This document shows, in pieces, positions 20,500 to 30,912 of a stretch of 64,000 bases of DNA. The DNA lies in the NCBI GenBank assembly GCA_018889975.1, contig CP076546.1, positions 4,805,001 through 4,869,000 on the forward strand, given 5' to 3'. Both the position numbers and the translations under genes were made by a program. Positions within the stretch are counted from its first letter, which is position 1; each line of letters begins with the position of its first letter. Source of the stretch: Bacillus sp. NP157. GTDB taxonomy: Bacteria > Pseudomonadota > Gammaproteobacteria > Xanthomonadales > Rhodanobacteraceae. The notes beneath the pieces are model-generated. The model worked only from the letters and a program-made list of their open reading frames with translations, was not told the DNA's origin and made no database searches.

Positions 20500-22575
20500 T
20501 TACGGCGTAACGCTCGACAGCGCGACATACGGTTCTTCATGCGCGGTCGGGTGGTTGGCCTTCCACGCGCGGACCATGGCCCGCAGCGAGAAGTACAGCA
20601 TGGTGAGCACCAGCAGCATGAACAGGCCGGTGAGGGCCATGTCGACGCGGGCATTGGTGATGATCCGCTGCATGTCGTCGGCCGTCTTCGCCGGCGGCAG
20701 CAGCTTGTTGGCGGCGAGGGCGTCGGCGTACTTGTTCGCCGCGGCGGTGAAGCTGATCTTTTCATCGAACAGCTTCTGCCAGCCCGCGGTGAGCGTGCAC
20801 AGCACCAGCCACACCGCCGGTACCGCCGGCACGAGCACGAAGCGTTCGCGCTTCAGCTTGACCGTCACCACGGTGGCGAGCATCAGTGCGATCGCCGCGA
20901 GCATCTGGTTGGCGATGCCGAACAGCGGCCACAGGGTATTGATGCCGCCGAGTGGATCCACCGCGCCCTGGTAGAGGAAATAGCCCCACAGGCCCACGCA
21001 GATCACCGTCGCGACCACGTTGCCGAGCCAGGAGTCGGTGTGCTTGAGCGGCGCGTAGGCCATGCCCGCCAGTTCCTGGATCATGAAGCGGCCGACGCGC
21101 GTGCCGGCGTCCACCGTGGTCAGGATGAACAGCGCTTCGAACAGGATGGCGTAGTGGTACCACAGGGCCATCATGCCTTCGCCCGGCATGATCCCGTGCA
21201 GCAACTGGGCCATGCCGACGGCGAGCGTCGGCGCGCCACCGGCGCGGCCGAGGATGGTGGATTCACCGATGTTCTTCGCGGTGTCGGTCAGCTCGGCGGG
21301 GGTGACGACGAAGCCCCACGCGCTGATCGCCTGTGCGGCGTCCTGTACGGTCGTGCCGACCAGGGCGCCCGGCGAGTTCATGGCGAAGTAAACGCCCGGG
21401 TGCAGCGAGGCAGCGGCGATCAGCGCCATGATCGCGACGAAGGCCTCCATCAGCATGCCGCCGTAGCCGACCATCCGCGCTTCGCCTTCATTGGCCAGCA
21501 GCTTCGGCGTGGTGCCCGAGGCGATGATCGAATGCCAGCCCGAGACGGCGCCGCAGGCGATGGTGATGAACAGGAACGGGAACAGGTTGCCCTGGAAGAC
21601 CGGGCCGGTACCGTCGATGAACTTCGTGACCGCGGGCATCTGCAGGGTCGGCGCGGCGAGGAAGATCGCCAGGGCGAGCAGGGCGATGGTGCCGATCTTC
21701 AGGAAGGTCGACAGGTAGTCGCGCGGTGCGAGCAGCAGCCACACCGGCAGCACCGAAGCGAAGAAGCCATAGCCGATCAGCCACCAGGCCAGGGCCTTGG
21801 CATCGAAGTCGAACAGGGCGGCCAGGGCCGGCGTGTCGTTGACCGTCTTGCCGAACCAGATCGAGGCCAGCAACAGCGCCACGCCGATGATCGACACCTC
21901 GAGGATGCGTCCGGGGCGGAAGTAGCGCAGGTACAGGCCCATCAGGATGGCGATGGGGATGGTCGCGGCCACGGTGAACGTGCCCCACGGGCTGTGCGTC
22001 AGCGCCTTGACCACCACGAGGGCGAGCACGGCGAGCACGATCATCATCAGCACCAGCACGCCGACCATGGCGATGACGCCGGGCACTTCGCCCAGTTCCT
22101 CGCGCAGCATGTGGCCGAGCGAGCGGCCGTCGCGGCGCAGCGACAGGCCGAGGATCATGAAGTCCTGCACGGCGCCGGCGAAGACCACGCCGACCAGGAT
22201 CCAGAGCATGCCGGGCAGGTAGCCCATCTGGGCGGCGAGCACGGGACCGACCAGCGGACCGGCACCGGCGATGGCGGCGAAATGGTGACCGAACACCACC
22301 CATTTGTCGGTGGGGACGTAGTCCAGGCCGTCATTGCGCAGCACCGATGGCGTCGCGCGGCTGGGATCCAGCTGCAGCACGCGGGTGGCGATCATCCGGC
22401 TGTAAAAGCGGTAGCCGATCAGGAAGACCGCAATGGATGCGGTGACCAGCCAGATGGCGTTGATCGGCTCGCCGCGGCGCAGGGCCACGACGCCAAGGCA
22501 CCAGGCGCCGACGATGGCGATGGCGGCCCACAGGATCTTGCCTGCCGGGCTGGGTTTAGGAATGGCGCTATTCAT
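20500..22575 (-). CDS. cstA: CstA-type pyruvate transporter / carbon starvation protein
   Basis: 691 residues with about 16-18 hydrophobic helices, the usual length of CstA (about 700). Family signatures include NDGLDYVPTDKWVVFGHHFAAI near residue 80, AGAGPLVGPVLAAQMGYLP, and WHSIIASGTTPKLLANEGEA. CstA imports pyruvate (and, in some reports, peptides) across the inner membrane when carbon is scarce. The ATG at 22575 gives MNSAIPKPSPAGKILWAAIA; a GAGGGGAG sits some 13 nt upstream. A longer in-frame reading toward 22896 has no family match and was not used. It is followed by ybdD. Confidence 0.95.
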   Translation of the reverse strand: MNSAIPKPSPAGKILWAAIAIVGAWCLGVVALRRGEPINAIWLVTASIAVFLIGYRFYSRMIATRVLQLDPSRATPSVLRNDGLDYVPTDKWVVFGHHFAAIAGAGPLVGPVLAAQMGYLPGMLWILVGVVFAGAVQDFMILGLSLRRDGRSLGHMLREELGEVPGVIAMVGVLVLMMIVLAVLALVVVKALTHSPWGTFTVAATIPIAILMGLYLRYFRPGRILEVSIIGVALLLASIWFGKTVNDTPALAALFDFDAKALAWWLIGYGFFASVLPVWLLLAPRDYLSTFLKIGTIALLALAIFLAAPTLQMPAVTKFIDGTGPVFQGNLFPFLFITIACGAVSGWHSIIASGTTPKLLANEGEARMVGYGGMLMEAFVAIMALIAAASLHPGVYFAMNSPGALVGTTVQDAAQAISAWGFVVTPAELTDTAKNIGESTILGRAGGAPTLAVGMAQLLHGIMPGEGMMALWYHYAILFEALFILTTVDAGTRVGRFMIQELAGMAYAPLKHTDSWLGNVVATVICVGLWGYFLYQGAVDPLGGINTLWPLFGIANQMLAAIALMLATVVTVKLKRERFVLVPAVPAVWLVLCTLTAGWQKLFDEKISFTAAANKYADALAANKLLPPAKTADDMQRIITNARVDMALTGLFMLLVLTMLYFSLRAMVRAWKANHPTAHEEPYVALSSVTP

Positions 22576-24781: not shown

Positions 24782-26440
24782 TCAGACCAGCTTCTTGTAC
24801 TTGACGCGCTTCGGGCCGGCGTCGTCGCCGAGGCGGCGCTTCTTGTCGGCTTCGTACTCGTTGTAGTTGCCGGGGAAGAACTCGACGTGCGAGTCGCCTT
24901 CGAACGCGATGATGTGCGTGGCGATGCGATCGAGGAACCAGCGATCATGCGAGATGACCACGGCGCTGCCGGGGAATTCGAGCAGGGCGTCTTCGAGCGC
25001 GCGCAGGGTTTCGACGTCAAGATCGTTCGACGGTTCGTCGAGCAGCAGCACGTTGCCCCCCTGCAGCAGGGTCTTGGCCATGTGCAGGCGGCCACGCTCA
25101 CCACCGGACAGCGAGCCAACGATCTTCTGCTGGTCGGTGCCCTTGAAGTTGAAGCGGCCGATGTAGGCGCGCGACTGGATCTCGAAGTTGCCGATGGTGA
25201 GGATGTCCGAACCGCCCGACACTTCCTGCCAGACGTTGTTCGAGCCATCCAGCGCGTCACGCGACTGGTCGACGTAGGCGAGCTTCACCGTGTGGCCCAG
25301 CTTCACTTCGCCCGTATCCGGGGTTTCCTTGCCCATGATCATCTTCATGAGCGTGGACTTACCGGCACCGTTCGGGCCGATGATGCCCACGATGGCACCC
25401 GGCGGCACCTTGAAGGAAAGGTCTTCGATCAGCATGCGGTCGCCGAACGACTTGGTGACGTTCTTGAACTCGATGACTTCCTGGCCCAGGCGCTCGCCCG
25501 GCGGAATGAAGATCTCGTTGGTTTCGTTGCGGCGCTGGTACTCGACCGAGTTCAGCTCTTCGAAGCGGTTGATACGCGCCTTGCCCTTGGACTGACGGCC
25601 CTTGGCGGCGGTGCGGATCCACTCCAGTTCCTTCTGGATGGCCTTCTGGCGCGACTTTTCCTGGTTGGCTTCCTGCTTCAGGCGCTCGTCCTTCTGCTCC
25701 AGCCACTCGGTGTAGTTGCCCTTCCAGGGGATGCCACGGCCGCGATCGAGCTCGAGGATCCACTCGGCCGCGTTGTCGAGGAAGTAGCGATCATGGGTGA
25801 CCGCGACGACGGTGCCCGGATAGTCGTGCAGGAACGTTTCCAGCCAGTCGACCGATTCGGCGTCCAGATGGTTGGTCGGTTCGTCGAGCAGCAGCATGTC
25901 CGGCTTGGAGAGCAGCAGGCGGCATAGCGCCACGCGGCGCTTCTCACCGCCCGACAGCGGGCCGATCAGTGCATCCCAGGGCGGCAGGCGTAGCGCGTCG
26001 GCCGCGACTTCGAGCTGGCGCTCGAGGGCGTGCGCATCGTTGGCGGCGAGGATGCCTTCGAGGGCTTCCTGTTCCTTGGCGAGCTTGTCGAAGTCGGCGC
26101 CTTCTTCCGCATAGGCGGCATAGACTTCTTCGAGGCGCTTTTGCGCGTCGAGCACTTCGGACACGCCTTCTTCGACGGCTTCGCGCACGGTCTTGTTCGG
26201 ATCGAGGTCCGGCTCCTGCGCGAGGTAGCCGATCTTGGTGCCGGGGTTGGCGCGGGCCTCGCCCTGGAAGTCCTTGTCGACGCCCGCCATGATCTTCAGC
26301 ACCGTGGACTTGCCCGCGCCGTTCACGCCCAGCAGGCCGATCTTGGCGCCGGGGAAGAACGAGAGCGAGATGTCCTTGATGATGTGACGCTTCGGGGGAA
26401 TGATCTTGCTCACCCCGTTCATGGTGTAGATGTATTGCAT
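24782..26440 (-). CDS. ettA: Energy-dependent translational throttle protein, ABC-F
   Basis: 552 residues with two ATP-binding cassettes and no membrane part, the layout of ABC-F proteins. Walker A sites are GVNGAGKST (near 39) and GPNGAGKST (near 355); signature motifs LSGGEKRR and LSGGERGR; Walker B sites [11 protein letters not shown] and [11 protein letters not shown]. The N-terminus [19 protein letters not shown] and the length match EttA, which binds the ribosomal E site and gates entry into elongation when ADP is high. A charged linker between the cassettes ([17 protein letters not shown]..) is the P-site tRNA interaction motif. It is monocistronic or continues into pyrF. Confidence 0.96.
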
Positions 26441-26571
26441 GGACGCTCCGTCGACAGGCCTGACCCCGGCGCGCGCTAGGCGCCGCTGGGCAAACCCCGA
26501 TTATAGCGGGTCGGGATGACCGGGCGCGTAAGCCGGTCGGGCTCGCCGCCGGTCTGGCGGCCGGACGCCCG

Positions 26572-27240
26572 TCATGGGTCCCAGTTCGGGCGGTTGGCCT
26601 GGATCCGGGAGGCATTGGTATCGCTGTAGCCCCAACACGTGGGCAGCGCCCGGGCCTCGGGCCACATGAGCGACGCGCATTGGGTGAGGTAGCCATCCTG
26701 GCGCCGGGCGGCCGCGTCGTGGTCGGCGCCCAGCAGATGGCCCAGCTCGTGGGCGGGCACGGAGGGTCCCTGGGTGATCGAGGCGAAAGCGTAGGGGCCG
26801 CCGTGCAGCATGGCCGCCCCGGCCGCGCCGGGAAAGACCCAGCGCCGCTTGACCAGCAGCAGGTTGTAGCGACCCGGTGTCCGCAGTCCCGGCGTCTCTC
26901 CCGGCGGCGGCGACGCTTCCAGCGCGTTCCGCCATGCGAACAAGGCCCCGATCTTGCCGTACGCGATGTCGGTAATCCCGGGGATGTCGCGGCGGAGATG
27001 GACCTCCACGCGGCGTTCGGGCAGCAGCCGCTGCATCTCCTTCAGCCAGGGGGCGAAGTGCCGTTTGCGCAGGCGTTCGTCCGAGGCGCCGATCTCGTCG
27101 TGGACGTAGACGAAGACGTCAATGCCGCCAGGGCGGGTTTCGCCGCGGGCAAGCGAAGGGCCGCCCAGTGCGGCGGCGAGGAGGAGGGCGACTCCTCCCA
27201 GGCTCTGGCGCAGCGATGTGAAGCCGGTTTGCTGGATCAT
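26572..27240 (-). CDS. Secreted metzincin-type zinc metalloprotease, member 1
   Basis: 222 residues with a signal peptide (hydrophobic run GGVALLLAAALGGPSLARG). The zinc site HELGHLLGADH (164-174) has the full metzincin pattern HExxHxxGxxH, and Met192 in ASLMWP fits the Met-turn. Cys188 and Cys202 could form a disulfide. It shares with the next two genes a core made of a VHD strand, PGITDIAYG (87-95), a LLLV strand, the zinc site and the C-x3-M..C tail. I cannot assign it to a named MEROPS family. The ATG at 27240 was chosen for its signal peptide and AGGA site; an upstream start at 27297 would bury it. It is probably co-transcribed with member 2, which lies upstream on the same strand. Confidence 0.82.
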   Translation of the reverse strand: MIQQTGFTSLRQSLGGVALLLAAALGGPSLARGETRPGGIDVFVYVHDEIGASDERLRKRHFAPWLKEMQRLLPERRVEVHLRRDIPGITDIAYGKIGALFAWRNALEASPPPGETPGLRTPGRYNLLLVKRRWVFPGAAGAAMLHGGPYAFASITQGPSVPAHELGHLLGADHDAAARRQDGYLTQCASLMWPEARALPTCWGYSDTNASRIQANRPNWDP

Positions 27241-27384
27241 GGACGCGTCCTGGCGGCGGGGAGTTTCGACGAGCGCGCTGGCAAAGTTAGGTTCCACGGA
27301 CGGCCGATGGAGTCAGCGCATAGCCCGTTGCCTTGTCGGCGTATTCGCCGAATCGGGCCGGCGAGGCCCTGGATCGTTCGAGGT

Positions 27385-27434
27385 GTTGACGGTCGGGCCA
27401 GGGGTGCGTCCCGCTGGCCCGTCCCGGCGTCAAC
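27385..27434 (-). terminator. Long nested hairpin over the end of metalloprotease 2
   Basis: Outer arms GTTGACG/CGTCAAC (27385-27391 and 27428-27434) enclose an 8 bp perfect inner stem CGGGCCAG/CTGGCCCG (27394-27401 and 27414-27421) extended by GGG/CCC. The stop codon (27430-27432) is part of the stem. No U run follows, so it may limit read-through to member 1 or protect the mRNA end. Confidence 0.6.
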
Positions 27435-28149
27435 GGGCCCTTTGCAGGTAATCGCGGATCTTGCGGTCGTTGGCCTTGGTGTAGACGTAGCAGCCCAGCT
27501 TGGCGAACTCCATCCGGCCCATGTTGGTGGTGCAGAAGGCGCGTTGTTCGGAGGCCTCGTGGGTCGCGCCGAGCAGGTGGCCGACCTCGTGGGCGAAGAC
27601 GAAGCGGTGGCCGTGGTTGCTGGCGATGGCCGTGTCCAGCGTGGGCGCGGCGGTTCCGTACGTCCCGCTGGGCCAGTTCGCCAGCGGTGCGCCCACGAAC
27701 AGCACGAACTTGTTCATCGCATCGGCCCGGCCTCCCTCGGCCCTGGCGTAGGCCCCGCCCGCGTTGCGGAACTCGCGCAGGCGATCGTCCTCCTTGCCCC
27801 GCTGGTAGTCGATGTCGGTGAGCCCAGGGACGTGCGCGCGCAGCGACACCGTGATCGGCACGCCGGGCGCCACGGTGGTTTCCATGTCCTTGATCCACCA
27901 GTCGACGTACCAGTTCATGAACTTCGCGGCGTCCGTCTCGCCCGCGCTGTCGTGGACGAAGATCCACACGTGCAGGGGGCGCGCCGATGTGTCCCTGGGG
28001 CCGCCGTGCCGGTCCACGGGCTGGAGCGGGCCATCGACCGGCACGGCCGGATAGATGCCGGGCTCCCACGGGACCTGCAAGGCGAGGGTAGGAAAGCTCG
28101 TGGCGCACGTGGCCATGCCGAGGGCGAACAACAGTGTCGGTGTTTTCAT
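27430..28149 (-). CDS. Secreted metzincin-type zinc metalloprotease, member 2
   Basis: 239 residues. A signal peptide (MKTPTLLFALGMATCATSFP) is followed by a short Pro-rich stretch, then the shared core: HVWIFVHDSAG (60-70), VPGLTDIDY (107-115), KFVLFV (147-152), zinc site HEVGHLLGATH (187-197), Met210 as Met-turn candidate and cysteines 206 and 220. The residues needed for zinc binding and catalysis are all present, so it should be active. The ATG at 28149 has AAAGGA 7 nt upstream. It lies upstream of member 1 and divergent from member 3 across a 260 bp region that contains the dyad GTGGAC-N7-GTCCAC (28172-28190). Natural substrate unknown. Confidence 0.82.
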   Translation of the reverse strand: MKTPTLLFALGMATCATSFPTLALQVPWEPGIYPAVPVDGPLQPVDRHGGPRDTSARPLHVWIFVHDSAGETDAAKFMNWYVDWWIKDMETTVAPGVPITVSLRAHVPGLTDIDYQRGKEDDRLREFRNAGGAYARAEGGRADAMNKFVLFVGAPLANWPSGTYGTAAPTLDTAIASNHGHRFVFAHEVGHLLGATHEASEQRAFCTTNMGRMEFAKLGCYVYTKANDRKIRDYLQRAR

Positions 28150-28409
28150 GGAAATCCTTTCCGGTGGTGAGGTGGACGATCCGCGTCCACGAGGCAGCGT
28201 AGCGATATCGGCGCAACCGGTCCCTAGGCGGATGTCGACAGTGCACGTAGGCCTGCACCCACAGGAACAGCGACAAATGTCCGCCCTGCACGACACGTCG
28301 CGTAGGCGATGGGCGCGCGCCGTCGTTGGGCGCCCCTTCCCCGAGCCGATCGCCCTAGGTTTGCCGGCGCCAGTCGGGGGCCGCCCGGCATTTCCCAAGG
28401 ATCCGATCG

Positions 28410-29555
28410 ATGCGCTCCATCCGTTCATTGAAACAGCGCCGCGCCCGTGCGGCACTGACCGCCTTGCTGATGCTCAGCTTTCTTTGCGGTCGGGCGGGGG
28501 CCGAGCCTGGCCCGCCACCCGACGATCCACTGCCTTGGGTGGTCGCAGGTTTCGACCGGGCCGTGGCCGAAGGTTTCCCCGCCCGGCTCGACCTGCCGGA
28601 GCTGCTCTCCCTCGGTAGCGCTGGCGTGCCACCGTCGGGGCGGGTGCGTCGCGCCACGCCGCGGCTGGTCGTCACCGGGCGGCTGGATGTCGTGGTCGAG
28701 ATGCCCGGCATGCCGAAGGGCCATCTCTACAGCGGGCGCCTTGACGATGAGGCCGTGGTGATCACCCGCATCGGCGCCTATCTCGATATCACCACCGCGC
28801 GGTCGGACGGCGTCGATGTTCTTGGATTCACCCTTGGCAGCCGCCGGCTGTTGCGCGATACCGTGCGCGGCCCCGGCGGCCTCGCGCCGGACCCCGAATG
28901 GCGCGAGGCCGCGGTGCCAGCCCCACGCCGGATCGCACGAAGCATCGAGGATCCCCTGGCGTATTCGCCGACCTTTCATGTGTTCATCCACGACGACGTG
29001 CGCGCCGCCCCGCGCCGCGTCCACGCCGTCTTCGCCGCCTGGTGGCTGGCCGACCTGGCGAAGACGGTCCTGCCCGTCGAGAAGATCAGGGTGGTCTACC
29101 GCCAGGCCGTCCCGGGCGTGACCGACATGCCTTACGGCTATCCGGAAGCCCTGGAAAACTGGCAGAACACCGCGGCGGCCTATGCCGCGCTCCACGGGCT
29201 GCCGCACGGCAAGACCTACAAGCACAAGTTCCTGCTGCTCAGCCGCGACCGGCCAATGAAGGGTGCCAATGGCGTCGCCTACGAGGGTGGCGCCGAGGCG
29301 ATGGCCTCGACCGCGGGACGGGTGAATATCGTGGCCCACGAATTCGGGCACACCCTGGGCGCCATGCACGGCGACGCGGCGCGTCAGGGGCCCTTGCTGG
29401 GACGATGCATCACCAGCATGTGGCCAGACCGGGGCGACGGCCATGCCGACTGCTACGCCTACTCGGGGGAGAACGGCCGGCACATCCGTTCCTACCTCCG
29501 CCACGGCCCGAATCCGGCGCAGCTGGCTGCCCGCGGCGTCGTGCTGGCCGACTGA
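28410..29555 (+). CDS. Secreted metzincin-type zinc metalloprotease, member 3 (long form)
   Basis: 381 residues with a signal peptide (RAALTALLMLSFLCGRAGA, about 12-31). The first 185 residues after it are unique to this member and may be a propeptide or targeting domain; RLDVVVEMPGMPKGHLYSGR and VITRIGAYLDITTARSDGVD look like beta strands. The last 190 residues repeat the core of its neighbours: FHVFIHDDV, AVPGVTDMPYG (233-243), KFLLLSRD, zinc site HEFGHTLGAMH (310-320), Met337 and cysteines 333 and 348. AAGGA precedes the ATG at 28410. It is transcribed away from members 1 and 2, so the three probably share a regulatory region. Substrate unknown. Confidence 0.82.
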   Translation: MRSIRSLKQRRARAALTALLMLSFLCGRAGAEPGPPPDDPLPWVVAGFDRAVAEGFPARLDLPELLSLGSAGVPPSGRVRRATPRLVVTGRLDVVVEMPGMPKGHLYSGRLDDEAVVITRIGAYLDITTARSDGVDVLGFTLGSRRLLRDTVRGPGGLAPDPEWREAAVPAPRRIARSIEDPLAYSPTFHVFIHDDVRAAPRRVHAVFAAWWLADLAKTVLPVEKIRVVYRQAVPGVTDMPYGYPEALENWQNTAAAYAALHGLPHGKTYKHKFLLLSRDRPMKGANGVAYEGGAEAMASTAGRVNIVAHEFGHTLGAMHGDAARQGPLLGRCITSMWPDRGDGHADCYAYSGENGRHIRSYLRHGPNPAQLAARGVVLAD

Positions 29556-29612: not shown

Positions 29613-29655
29613 TACACTTTCGGTCTTGTTTCCCCACCTGTCCCACGAGGTTGAG

Positions 29656-30912
29656 ATGTTCCCGAAGGATGCAACGATCGCCGGCTATGACGACGAACTC
29701 GCCAAGGCCATCGCCGACGAGTCCCGTCGCCAGGAAGATCACGTCGAGCTGATCGCCTCGGAGAACTACGCCAGCCCGCGCGTCATGGAAGCCCAGGGTT
29801 CGAGCCTGACCAACAAGTACGCCGAGGGTTACCCGGGCAAGCGTTACTACGGTGGCTGCGAGTACGTCGACATCGCCGAGAAGCTCGCGATCGACCGCCT
29901 GAAGAAGCTGTTCGGTGCCGACTACGCCAACGTGCAGCCGCACTCCGGTTCGCAGGCCAACCAGGCCGTCTACTTCGCGCTGCTGCAGCCGGGCGACACC
30001 ATCCTGGGCATGAGCCTCGCCCACGGCGGCCACCTGACCCACGGCGCCAAGGTCAACCTGTCGGGCAAGATCTTCAACGCCGTGCAGTACGGCATCGACC
30101 CGGATACCGGCCTGGTCAACTACGACGAAGTGGAAAAGCTCGCCGTCGAGCACAAGCCGAAGATGATCGTCGCCGGCTTCTCCGCGTATTCGCAGGTGCT
30201 GGACTGGGCGCGTTTCCGCGCCATCGCCGACAAGGTCGGTGCCTACCTGTTCGTCGACATGGCGCACATCGCTGGCCTGGTCGCGGCCGGCGTGTACCCG
30301 AGCCCGATGGACCACGCGCACGTCGTGACCTCGACCACGCACAAGACCCTGCGCGGTCCGCGCGGCGGCATCATCGTGGCCAAGGGCCTCGGCGAAGAGA
30401 TCGAAAAGAAGCTGCAGTCCGTGGTGTTCCCGGGCATCCAGGGCGGCCCGCTGATGCACGTCATCGCGGCCAAGGCCGTGGCGTTCAAGGAAGCCCTCGA
30501 GCCGGCCTTCACCGAGTACCAGAAGCAGGTCGTCGCCAATGCCAAGGCGATGGCGAAGACGCTGATCGGGCGCGGTTACAAGGTCGTCTCCGGCGGCACC
30601 GAAAACCACCTGATGCTGGTCGACCTGATCGGTCGCGATGCCACGGGCAAGGATGCGGAAGCTGCGCTGGGCAAGGCCCACATCACGGTCAATAAGAATG
30701 CCGTGCCGAACGATCCGCGTTCCCCGTTCGTCACCTCGGGCCTGCGCGTCGGTACGCCGGCGATCACGACCCGCGGGTACAAGGAAGCGGACACCATCGA
30801 GCTCGCGAACTGGATCTGCGACGTGCTCGACGCACCGAACGATGACGCTGTCATCGCCGCCGTGCGCGAGAAGGTCACGGCCCAGTGCAAGAAGTTCCCC
30901 GTCTACGGCTAA
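29656..30912 (+). CDS. glyA: Serine hydroxymethyltransferase
   Basis: 418 residues, the normal SHMT length. The PLP enzyme converts serine and tetrahydrofolate to glycine and methylene-THF, feeding purine, thymidylate and methionine synthesis. Clear motifs are [35 protein letters not shown] and the PLP lysine in [14 protein letters not shown]. The ATG at 29656 follows GAGG and gives the standard [15 protein letters not shown] start; an upstream in-frame codon is less likely. It is followed at 3 bp by nrdR, an order (glyA-nrdR-ribD) conserved in many proteobacteria, so they form one operon. Confidence 0.97.

Follow-up and report, generated by a model that had tools for sequence, protein, structure and literature searches.

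An array of putative secreted metzincin-like proteases between ettA and glyA in Luteibacter

A 64,000-nucleotide stretch of contig CP076546.1 (positions 4,805,001 to 4,869,000, deposited as Bacillus sp. NP157), hereafter the window, carries three genes for putative zinc proteases, which we call P1, P2 and P3 and which fill the interval between ettA and glyA (Table 1). The window is part of a single 4.88-Mb contig and belongs to the genus Luteibacter. We consider it probable that P1-P3 are members of an array of secreted metzincin-clan zinc endopeptidases in Luteibacter, M12B-like enzymes in a subfamily of their own, whose copies are duplicated, lost and trimmed over time. The array is conserved in the genus and unstable.

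Three metzincin-like proteins fill the ettA-glyA interval

The initial annotation described P1, P2 and P3 as mutually related, metzincin-like proteins with signal peptides, and their sequences bear this out, the signal-like N-termini being a judgement by eye. Each protein carries an HExxHxxGxxH zinc site at the very residue numbers first reported, the shared core PG[ILV]TD[IM].Y, a C-x3-M element with the methionine of the Met-turn, and exactly two cysteines, both C-terminal to the zinc site, if the single extra cysteine in the signal-like segment of P2 and that in P3 are set aside. P2 shares 33% identity with P1 and 34% with P3, and the residue following the third histidine is D in P1, E in P2 and G in P3. 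The six frames of the 64-kb window contain four HExxHxxGxxH matches, three of which are those of P1-P3, versus a mean of 0.017 in 60 first-order Markov copies of the window; the fourth string, HEVLHGAGEDH at 22156 (+), is unlike this family and probably due to chance. Third-position guanine-cytosine (GC) content is as in coding DNA (0.847 for P1 and 0.845 for P2, both measured on longer open reading frames (ORFs), and 0.835 for P3). The starts of all three genes were picked by eye, and longer GTG starts exist for P1 (at 27297) and P2. P1 stops about 24 residues before the end of the open frame of its orthologue in genome G007 (26501-26571, minus strand), and a similar stretch just past its end is visible by eye in another frame of the window.

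P3 had also been credited with an additional N-terminal domain of 185 residues. The extra region is there, but it is not one domain: the first ~185 residues comprise a signal-like segment, a prodomain-like domain of ~115 residues and a linker.

Placement within the metzincin clan

All three proteins carry the zinc motif given for metzincins, HExxHxxG/NxxH/D (PMC12237041). Relatives were compared in an alignment (A4) of 90 rows, consisting of P3 and 89 of 96 relatives drawn only from ORFs scoring at least 80 bits, from which seven short or oddly trimmed sequences had been removed by hand. The view that the proteins match no named family went too far, as P1 and P3 exceed the Pfam gathering score of 22 bits for Reprolysin_4 (PF13583) and P2 falls only 1.4 bits short of it, these Pfam matches being marginal and mostly over the zinc helix; at E ≤ 0.01 the Reprolysin_4 model is matched by 73 of the 90 A4 rows. 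What stands is that no curated family of their own was found in these libraries: the nearest models are M12B-like, the NCBIfam search gave only matches far below the model cut-offs, and neither Pfam nor NCBIfam holds a curated model that describes P1-P3. Against the matrixin model (M10, PF00413, cut-off 24 bits) P1, P2 and P3 score 12.9, 13.4 and 12.1 bits. Fragilysin, which is synthesised as a proenzyme and bears its prodomain at the N-terminus, resembles the family in that its model (TIGR03935) gives weak matches in 51 of the 90 A4 rows at E ≤ 0.01, located around the zinc helix in P1-P3, but the scores of 15.5, 16.4 and 12.4 bits compare with a cut-off of 190.7 bits. A 42-member profile run against the sequences of solved structures found its best match at E = 1.2e-4, again over the zinc helix.

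Reprolysins of the adamalysin type have an aspartate after the third histidine, a C-I-M Met-turn and three conserved disulfides. P1-P3 share the HExxHxxGxxH site and the downstream Met-turn with the Reprolysin_4/M12B-like bacterial metzincins; they differ from reprolysins in having two cysteines only, in the position of a cysteine four residues before the Met-turn methionine instead of two, and in the residue after the third histidine, which in the family is mostly glutamate (64 of 90 A4 rows) instead of aspartate. As a set they thus lack the hallmarks of true M12B peptidases, and we have filed them as M12B-like and not as M12B.

Mep72 of Pseudomonas aeruginosa is a metzincin with a signal, a zinc motif and a Met-turn, all of which have their counterparts in P1-P3, and it is secreted by the type II (Xcp) system; it has, however, a size of 65 kDa, carbohydrate-binding domains and a partner protein, BamI (PMC4334185), whereas P1-P3 are 222-381 amino acids (aa) long and no gene for a partner accompanies them at the locus. 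A protein from the same bacterial family as the window (L172:5326-6570, HEIGHNLGANH, M72-like by eye) has the zinc motif in common and a weak profile match of 27 bits, far under the 144-246 bits of the Luteibacter family members (one 57-bit fragment aside). P1-P3 match profiles A2 and A4 and sit in a common tree with their Luteibacter relatives and with those from Pseudomonas and one Paraburkholderia; this tree has no outgroup family, and the separateness of the subfamily from other metzincins rests on scores. P1-P3 would accordingly be M12B-like members of the metzincin clan and, apparently, an undescribed branch of this familiar group of enzymes. Among the listed matches from the open-licence literature on Luteibacter proteases and metalloproteases, no title or abstract opening describes these genes, a search combining reprolysin and Pseudomonas syringae returned nothing, and we found no function in print for this branch.

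Conservation and turnover of the array

The two flanking genes are matched in 22 of 23 Luteibacter genomes, ettA at 88-100% and glyA at 90-100% identity, and the genome lacking these matches is an 80%-complete bin. Between them, 20 of the 22 genomes carry one to four family copies (one in 9 genomes, two in 5, three in 2 and four in 4, shortened ORFs included), and two carry none (G016, with a gap of ~0.24 kb, and G017, with ~0.35 kb). Both genes were found at threshold in 25 of 26 genomes of sister genera, within 7.1 kb of each other in 24 of these, where the gap is under 0.35 kb in 11 cases and 1.1-7.1 kb in 13. No family member was detected in the 13 long gaps when the profiles were applied to ORFs selected for their length and third-position GC, nor in any of the 26 genomes searched whole with P3 as query; among the genomes examined, the array at ettA-glyA is seen in Luteibacter only. 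The gap is a variable site across the bacterial family: in the sister genera (loci L159-L171) it is occupied by what resemble, by eye, regulators, oxidoreductases and other genes, or it measures less than 0.35 kb.

Conservation of the trio in relatives had been proposed as a check, and what proved to be conserved is an array of family members and not the set P1-P2-P3: G007, for example, has P1 and P2 at ettA-glyA and no P3 there. In a tree of 117 rows the three proteins fall into three separate, old clades, each with orthologues from the same locus (P1 groups with G007, then with G014, G021 and G020; the P2 clade has 14 members and the P3 clade 6), which rules out a recent tandem triplication. 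The trio is best read as the remnant of an older, larger array. The coordinated three-gene system with a shared, divergent control region that the initial annotation envisaged is not supported. Genes of the P2 and P3 clades are divergent neighbours in only two (G000, G004) of the six genomes with both clades, and convergent, mostly with other copies in between, in the remaining ones (G018, G009, G019, G005), so that neither the control region nor a shared divergent promoter is a conserved feature; a scan of the 260-bp region between P2 and P3 for a sigma-70-like site found none, and was uninformative in itself.

The array proteins evolve fast, yet are constrained. Over their full length, P1 and P2 are 77% and 71% identical to their G007 orthologues, versus 99.5% for ettA and 95% for glyA. 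The ratios of nonsynonymous to synonymous divergence (dN/dS), taken on the catalytic domains (the full-length comparison had included non-coding upstream sequence for some relatives), are 0.12 for P1 and 0.24 for P2 against G007 and 0.31 for P3 against G018, with full-protein values below 0.4 for P1 and P2 against G007 and flank values of 0.017 (ettA) and 0.093 (glyA) against the same genome, all of them rough estimates, since several comparisons have a dS that approaches or exceeds 1. These values indicate purifying selection on P1-P3. They also speak against regarding the array as decaying, largely non-functional sequence, an idea suggested by copies that are shortened or have a broken frame (in G015, G009 and G005), by a fragment in G014 and by a clade that has exchanged its catalytic glutamate for glutamine (E-to-Q, see below): catalytic-domain dN/dS stays at 0.12-0.31, including 0.16-0.24 in the E-to-Q clade, and the zinc ligands are kept in 56 of the 57 family ORFs that a whole-genome search recovered from Luteibacter, the 57th being a short fragment. 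Zinc-site conservation in homologues, on which the initial annotation had made its proposal depend, thus holds, and we judge decay to be very improbable.

Fast evolution and copy turnover would also fit a conflict, in which P1-P3 were antibacterial toxins, that is, periplasmic peptidase effectors each with an immunity partner, and not scavenging enzymes. There are precedents for this, as Reprolysin_4-domain proteins of 243 aa are candidate type VI effectors in Salmonella with adjacent putative immunity genes (PMC10469887), and Mep72 is toxic to E. coli unless BamI is co-expressed (PMC4334185). P1-P3, however, bear signal-like N-termini of their own, and the locus has little room for partner genes, although a partner might be encoded elsewhere: the longest ettA-glyA stretch outside family ORFs does not exceed 211 bp in 16 of 20 genomes, measures 134 bp in the window and reaches 458-663 bp in four genomes (G015, G009, G019, G007). 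We hold such a toxin function to be unlikely and retain the interpretation as an array of secreted endopeptidases.

Distribution of the family

Profile A2 finds 1-6 matches in each of the 23 Luteibacter genomes at E ≤ 1e-5. Of the remaining 210 genomes of this bacterial family, only two gave a match, in each case a weak one (E 3.4e-6 and 4.4e-6); these on inspection turned out to be other HExxH proteins (HELGHNLNMAH and HEIGHNLGANH). A scan of named genomes, which under-samples E-to-Q copies, recovered at least 70 loci, with at least 13 in Luteibacter, at least 55 in Pseudomonas, and at least one each in Paraburkholderia and an unclassified gammaproteobacterium; in 369 genomes drawn evenly from the class, no match at E ≤ 1e-8 was obtained except that of the window itself. 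Within the fetched stretches, the 55 listed Pseudomonas loci hold one copy in 40 cases, two in 14 and three in one. The neighbourhood outside Luteibacter is largely conserved, since five ORF groups recur near the match at 45-48 of 57 loci. A phosphate-transport gene, a mutarotase, a LysR regulator and an aspartase were seen by eye among the neighbours at Pseudomonas loci (among L042-L102). Carriage by phages or plasmids is unsupported: the P3 catalytic domain had no match in phage records, one Pseudomonas relative none in plasmid records, and one set of peptide patterns found no P3 relative in viral contigs.

Variation at the zinc site, the Met-turn and the tail cysteines

In the 56 Luteibacter ORFs with the zinc motif, the third histidine is always present (56/56), the glutamate is found in 53 and replaced by glutamine in 3, and the glycine position reads Gly in 45, Asp in 4, Asn, Thr and Ser in 2 each and Ala in 1. 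The three histidines are likewise kept in 90 of 90 A4 rows and the glutamate in 88, counts that are biased and partly built in, since the loci were found with the pattern AHExGH[LTM][LF][GDS][AG]; the zinc-motif glycine is changed in 17 of these 90 rows. The Met-turn and cysteine columns lie outside this pattern.

The methionine of the Met-turn has been called "invariant in all metzincin proteases" (PMC1266349). It is present in 62 of the 90 A4 rows (22 of the 26 from Luteibacter and 40 of the remaining 64) and replaced in 28 (Leu 11, Thr 7, Ile 7, Val 2, Gly 1), which come from Luteibacter and Pseudomonas. A pattern-free check gave a similar count, with 27 of the 90 rows lacking any methionine in the 32 residues after the third histidine. 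Across the 56 Luteibacter ORFs the residue is Met in 47, Leu in 8 and Thr in 1, two of these being read from the sequences CHTTM and SNM. One Luteibacter group has leucine at this position in all three members compared, at dN/dS of 0.13-0.16, and Leu-type copies occur, for instance, away from the array locus in G011 and G012. In engineered variants, MMP-2 was little affected by Leu or Ser, and protease C was impaired by Leu, Ala or Ile (PMC1266349). A search of the open-licence literature for natural replacements gave none relevant by title; the only one on a metzincin, PMC6949598, uses the phrase for selenomethionine.

The two tail cysteines are both present in 68 A4 rows, both absent in 21 and single in one, allowing one column of slack, which is the joint presence and absence that a disulfide would predict; in P3 this bond would join C333 and C348. 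These counts are rows and not events, and with 16 of the 21 cysteine-free rows in one Pseudomonas clade (the others being one Luteibacter copy, in G005, and four outside the tree) the independent losses may be few.

Three genomes, G009, G019 and G005, each have one copy in which the motif has become HQxxH while the three zinc histidines are retained. These E-to-Q copies form a single clade (support 100/100), and those of G009 and G019 carry two copies of the prodomain. The G005 copy has no prodomain match and seems to be disrupted in its 5' part, an argument against a conserved role in that genome. It is conceivable, and we put this forward tentatively, that two fixtures of the clan have become optional in this subfamily, namely the Met-turn methionine (Leu, Ile, Thr or Val) and the catalytic glutamate (Gln in a pseudoprotease, with a doubled prodomain in two cases), and the zinc-binding E-to-Q pseudoprotease could then serve as an inhibitor, chaperone or decoy for adjacent active copies. 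The most unusual features, the Met-turn replacement and the E-to-Q copy with its doubled prodomain, lie in relatives and not in the window.

The prodomain-like domain

Of the 56 Luteibacter ORFs that carry the catalytic motif, 44 have the domain that precedes the catalytic part of P3. The Paraburkholderia protein, judged by eye, has it too; most of the Pseudomonas proteins lack it and are short forms, ~200 residues long. Its profile, run on the 23 Luteibacter genomes at E ≤ 0.001, matches only at places that hold this protease family, as judged by position. F48 is invariant and D49 at least 90% conserved in 34 full-length rows, a count we prefer to the F-[DE] seen in 38 of 38 prodomain slices, which is partly built in because the slices were placed with an F[DE] pattern (alignment A6, 38 of 46 slices, eight badly aligned or domain-less ones, including P2, having been removed by hand). 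A Pfam search of the 38 rows found no convincing known domain. Latency through a cysteine switch is unlikely, since 37 of the 38 slices are free of cysteine, and the idea of an acidic switch at the F-D motif is no more than conjecture.

Prodomain matches occur in 12 of 14 members of the P2 clade, the two exceptions being P2 and its G007 orthologue, and P2 has thus, most simply, lost its prodomain. As P3 alone among the three has a prodomain and the genes adjoin, the P3 prodomain might be thought to act in trans on P1 and P2, making the trio one unit of folding or inhibition. Yet G007 keeps constrained P1 and P2 orthologues with neither a P3 at the locus nor any prodomain match in the genome, and G002 and G010 likewise have short forms and no prodomain match. 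The short forms there manage without a detectable prodomain, and we consider action in trans the least probable of the alternatives.

Table 1. Features of the array in the window, and variant family members at other loci (positions refer to the window unless a locus is named)
Feature	Position	Strand	Remarks
P1, short-form metzincin	26572-27240	-	222 aa; signal-like N-terminus, no prodomain; Reprolysin_4 23.9 bits (cut-off 22)
P2, short-form metzincin	27430-28149	-	239 aa; Reprolysin_4 20.6 bits (under cut-off 22)
P3, metzincin	28410-29555	+	381 aa; signal-like N-terminus and prodomain-like domain; Reprolysin_4 23.3 bits (cut-off 22)
P1 zinc site, HELGHLLGADH	26719-26751	-	aa 164-174
P2 zinc site, HEVGHLLGATH	27559-27591	-	aa 187-197
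P3 zinc site, HEFGHTLGAMH	29337-29369	+	aa 310-320
P3 prodomain-like domain	28539-28883	+	slice aa 44-158; contains conserved F48-D49
P3 catalytic domain	28962-29501	+	about aa 185-364
Divergent P2-P3 intergenic region	28150-28409		260 bp; layout not conserved
ettA-like ABC-F ATPase	24785-26440	-	borders the array on the left; name assigned by eye
glyA (serine hydroxymethyltransferase)	29626-30912	+	borders the array on the right; name assigned by eye
HQxxH paralogue	L115:8167-9558	+	tandem prodomains
HQxxH paralogue	L118:8566-9933	-	tandem prodomains
HQxxH paralogue	L129:8795-9577	-	no prodomain found
Met-turn-replaced members, Pseudomonas	among L044-L102		zinc site kept
Met-turn-replaced members, Luteibacter	L116, L119, L120, L126, L130, L131, L133		zinc site kept

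Proposed role and significance

Extracellular proteolysis is the most likely role of P1-P3, in view of their signal-like N-termini, the two GspD matches above the family cut-off in the genome, and the precedent of Mep72. The chains would be exported through a Sec-type signal and might plausibly leave the cell by type II secretion. Outside, the three histidines would hold the zinc ion and the glutamate of HExxH would activate water, while the Met-turn and one disulfide would shape the lower subdomain. P3 would be produced in zymogen form and require removal of its N-terminal domain, and P1 and P2, being devoid of a prodomain, may be active once folded outside or be restrained in some other way. 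That the copies diverge fast and turn over suggests that they act on different extracellular proteins, possibly of plant, fungal, microbial or detrital origin.

Several observations weigh against this account as a whole: the marginal Pfam matches, the rough dN/dS values, the broken and fragmentary copies, the cysteine counts made on rows, and the changes of the zinc-motif glycine and of the Met-turn methionine, owing to which some members may be altered in function. An array of secreted zinc endopeptidases nevertheless remains the probable explanation in our eyes.

Why metzincins keep the methionine of the Met-turn is an old question that has so far been approached with engineered variants (PMC1266349). 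The 28 of 90 family members with Leu, Ile, Thr, Val or Gly in its place are natural proteins in which the role of the Met-turn could be tested. The array is, moreover, a case of protease genes gaining and losing prodomains at one fixed locus, and it also exhibits a copy with a changed active site that is kept beside normal copies.

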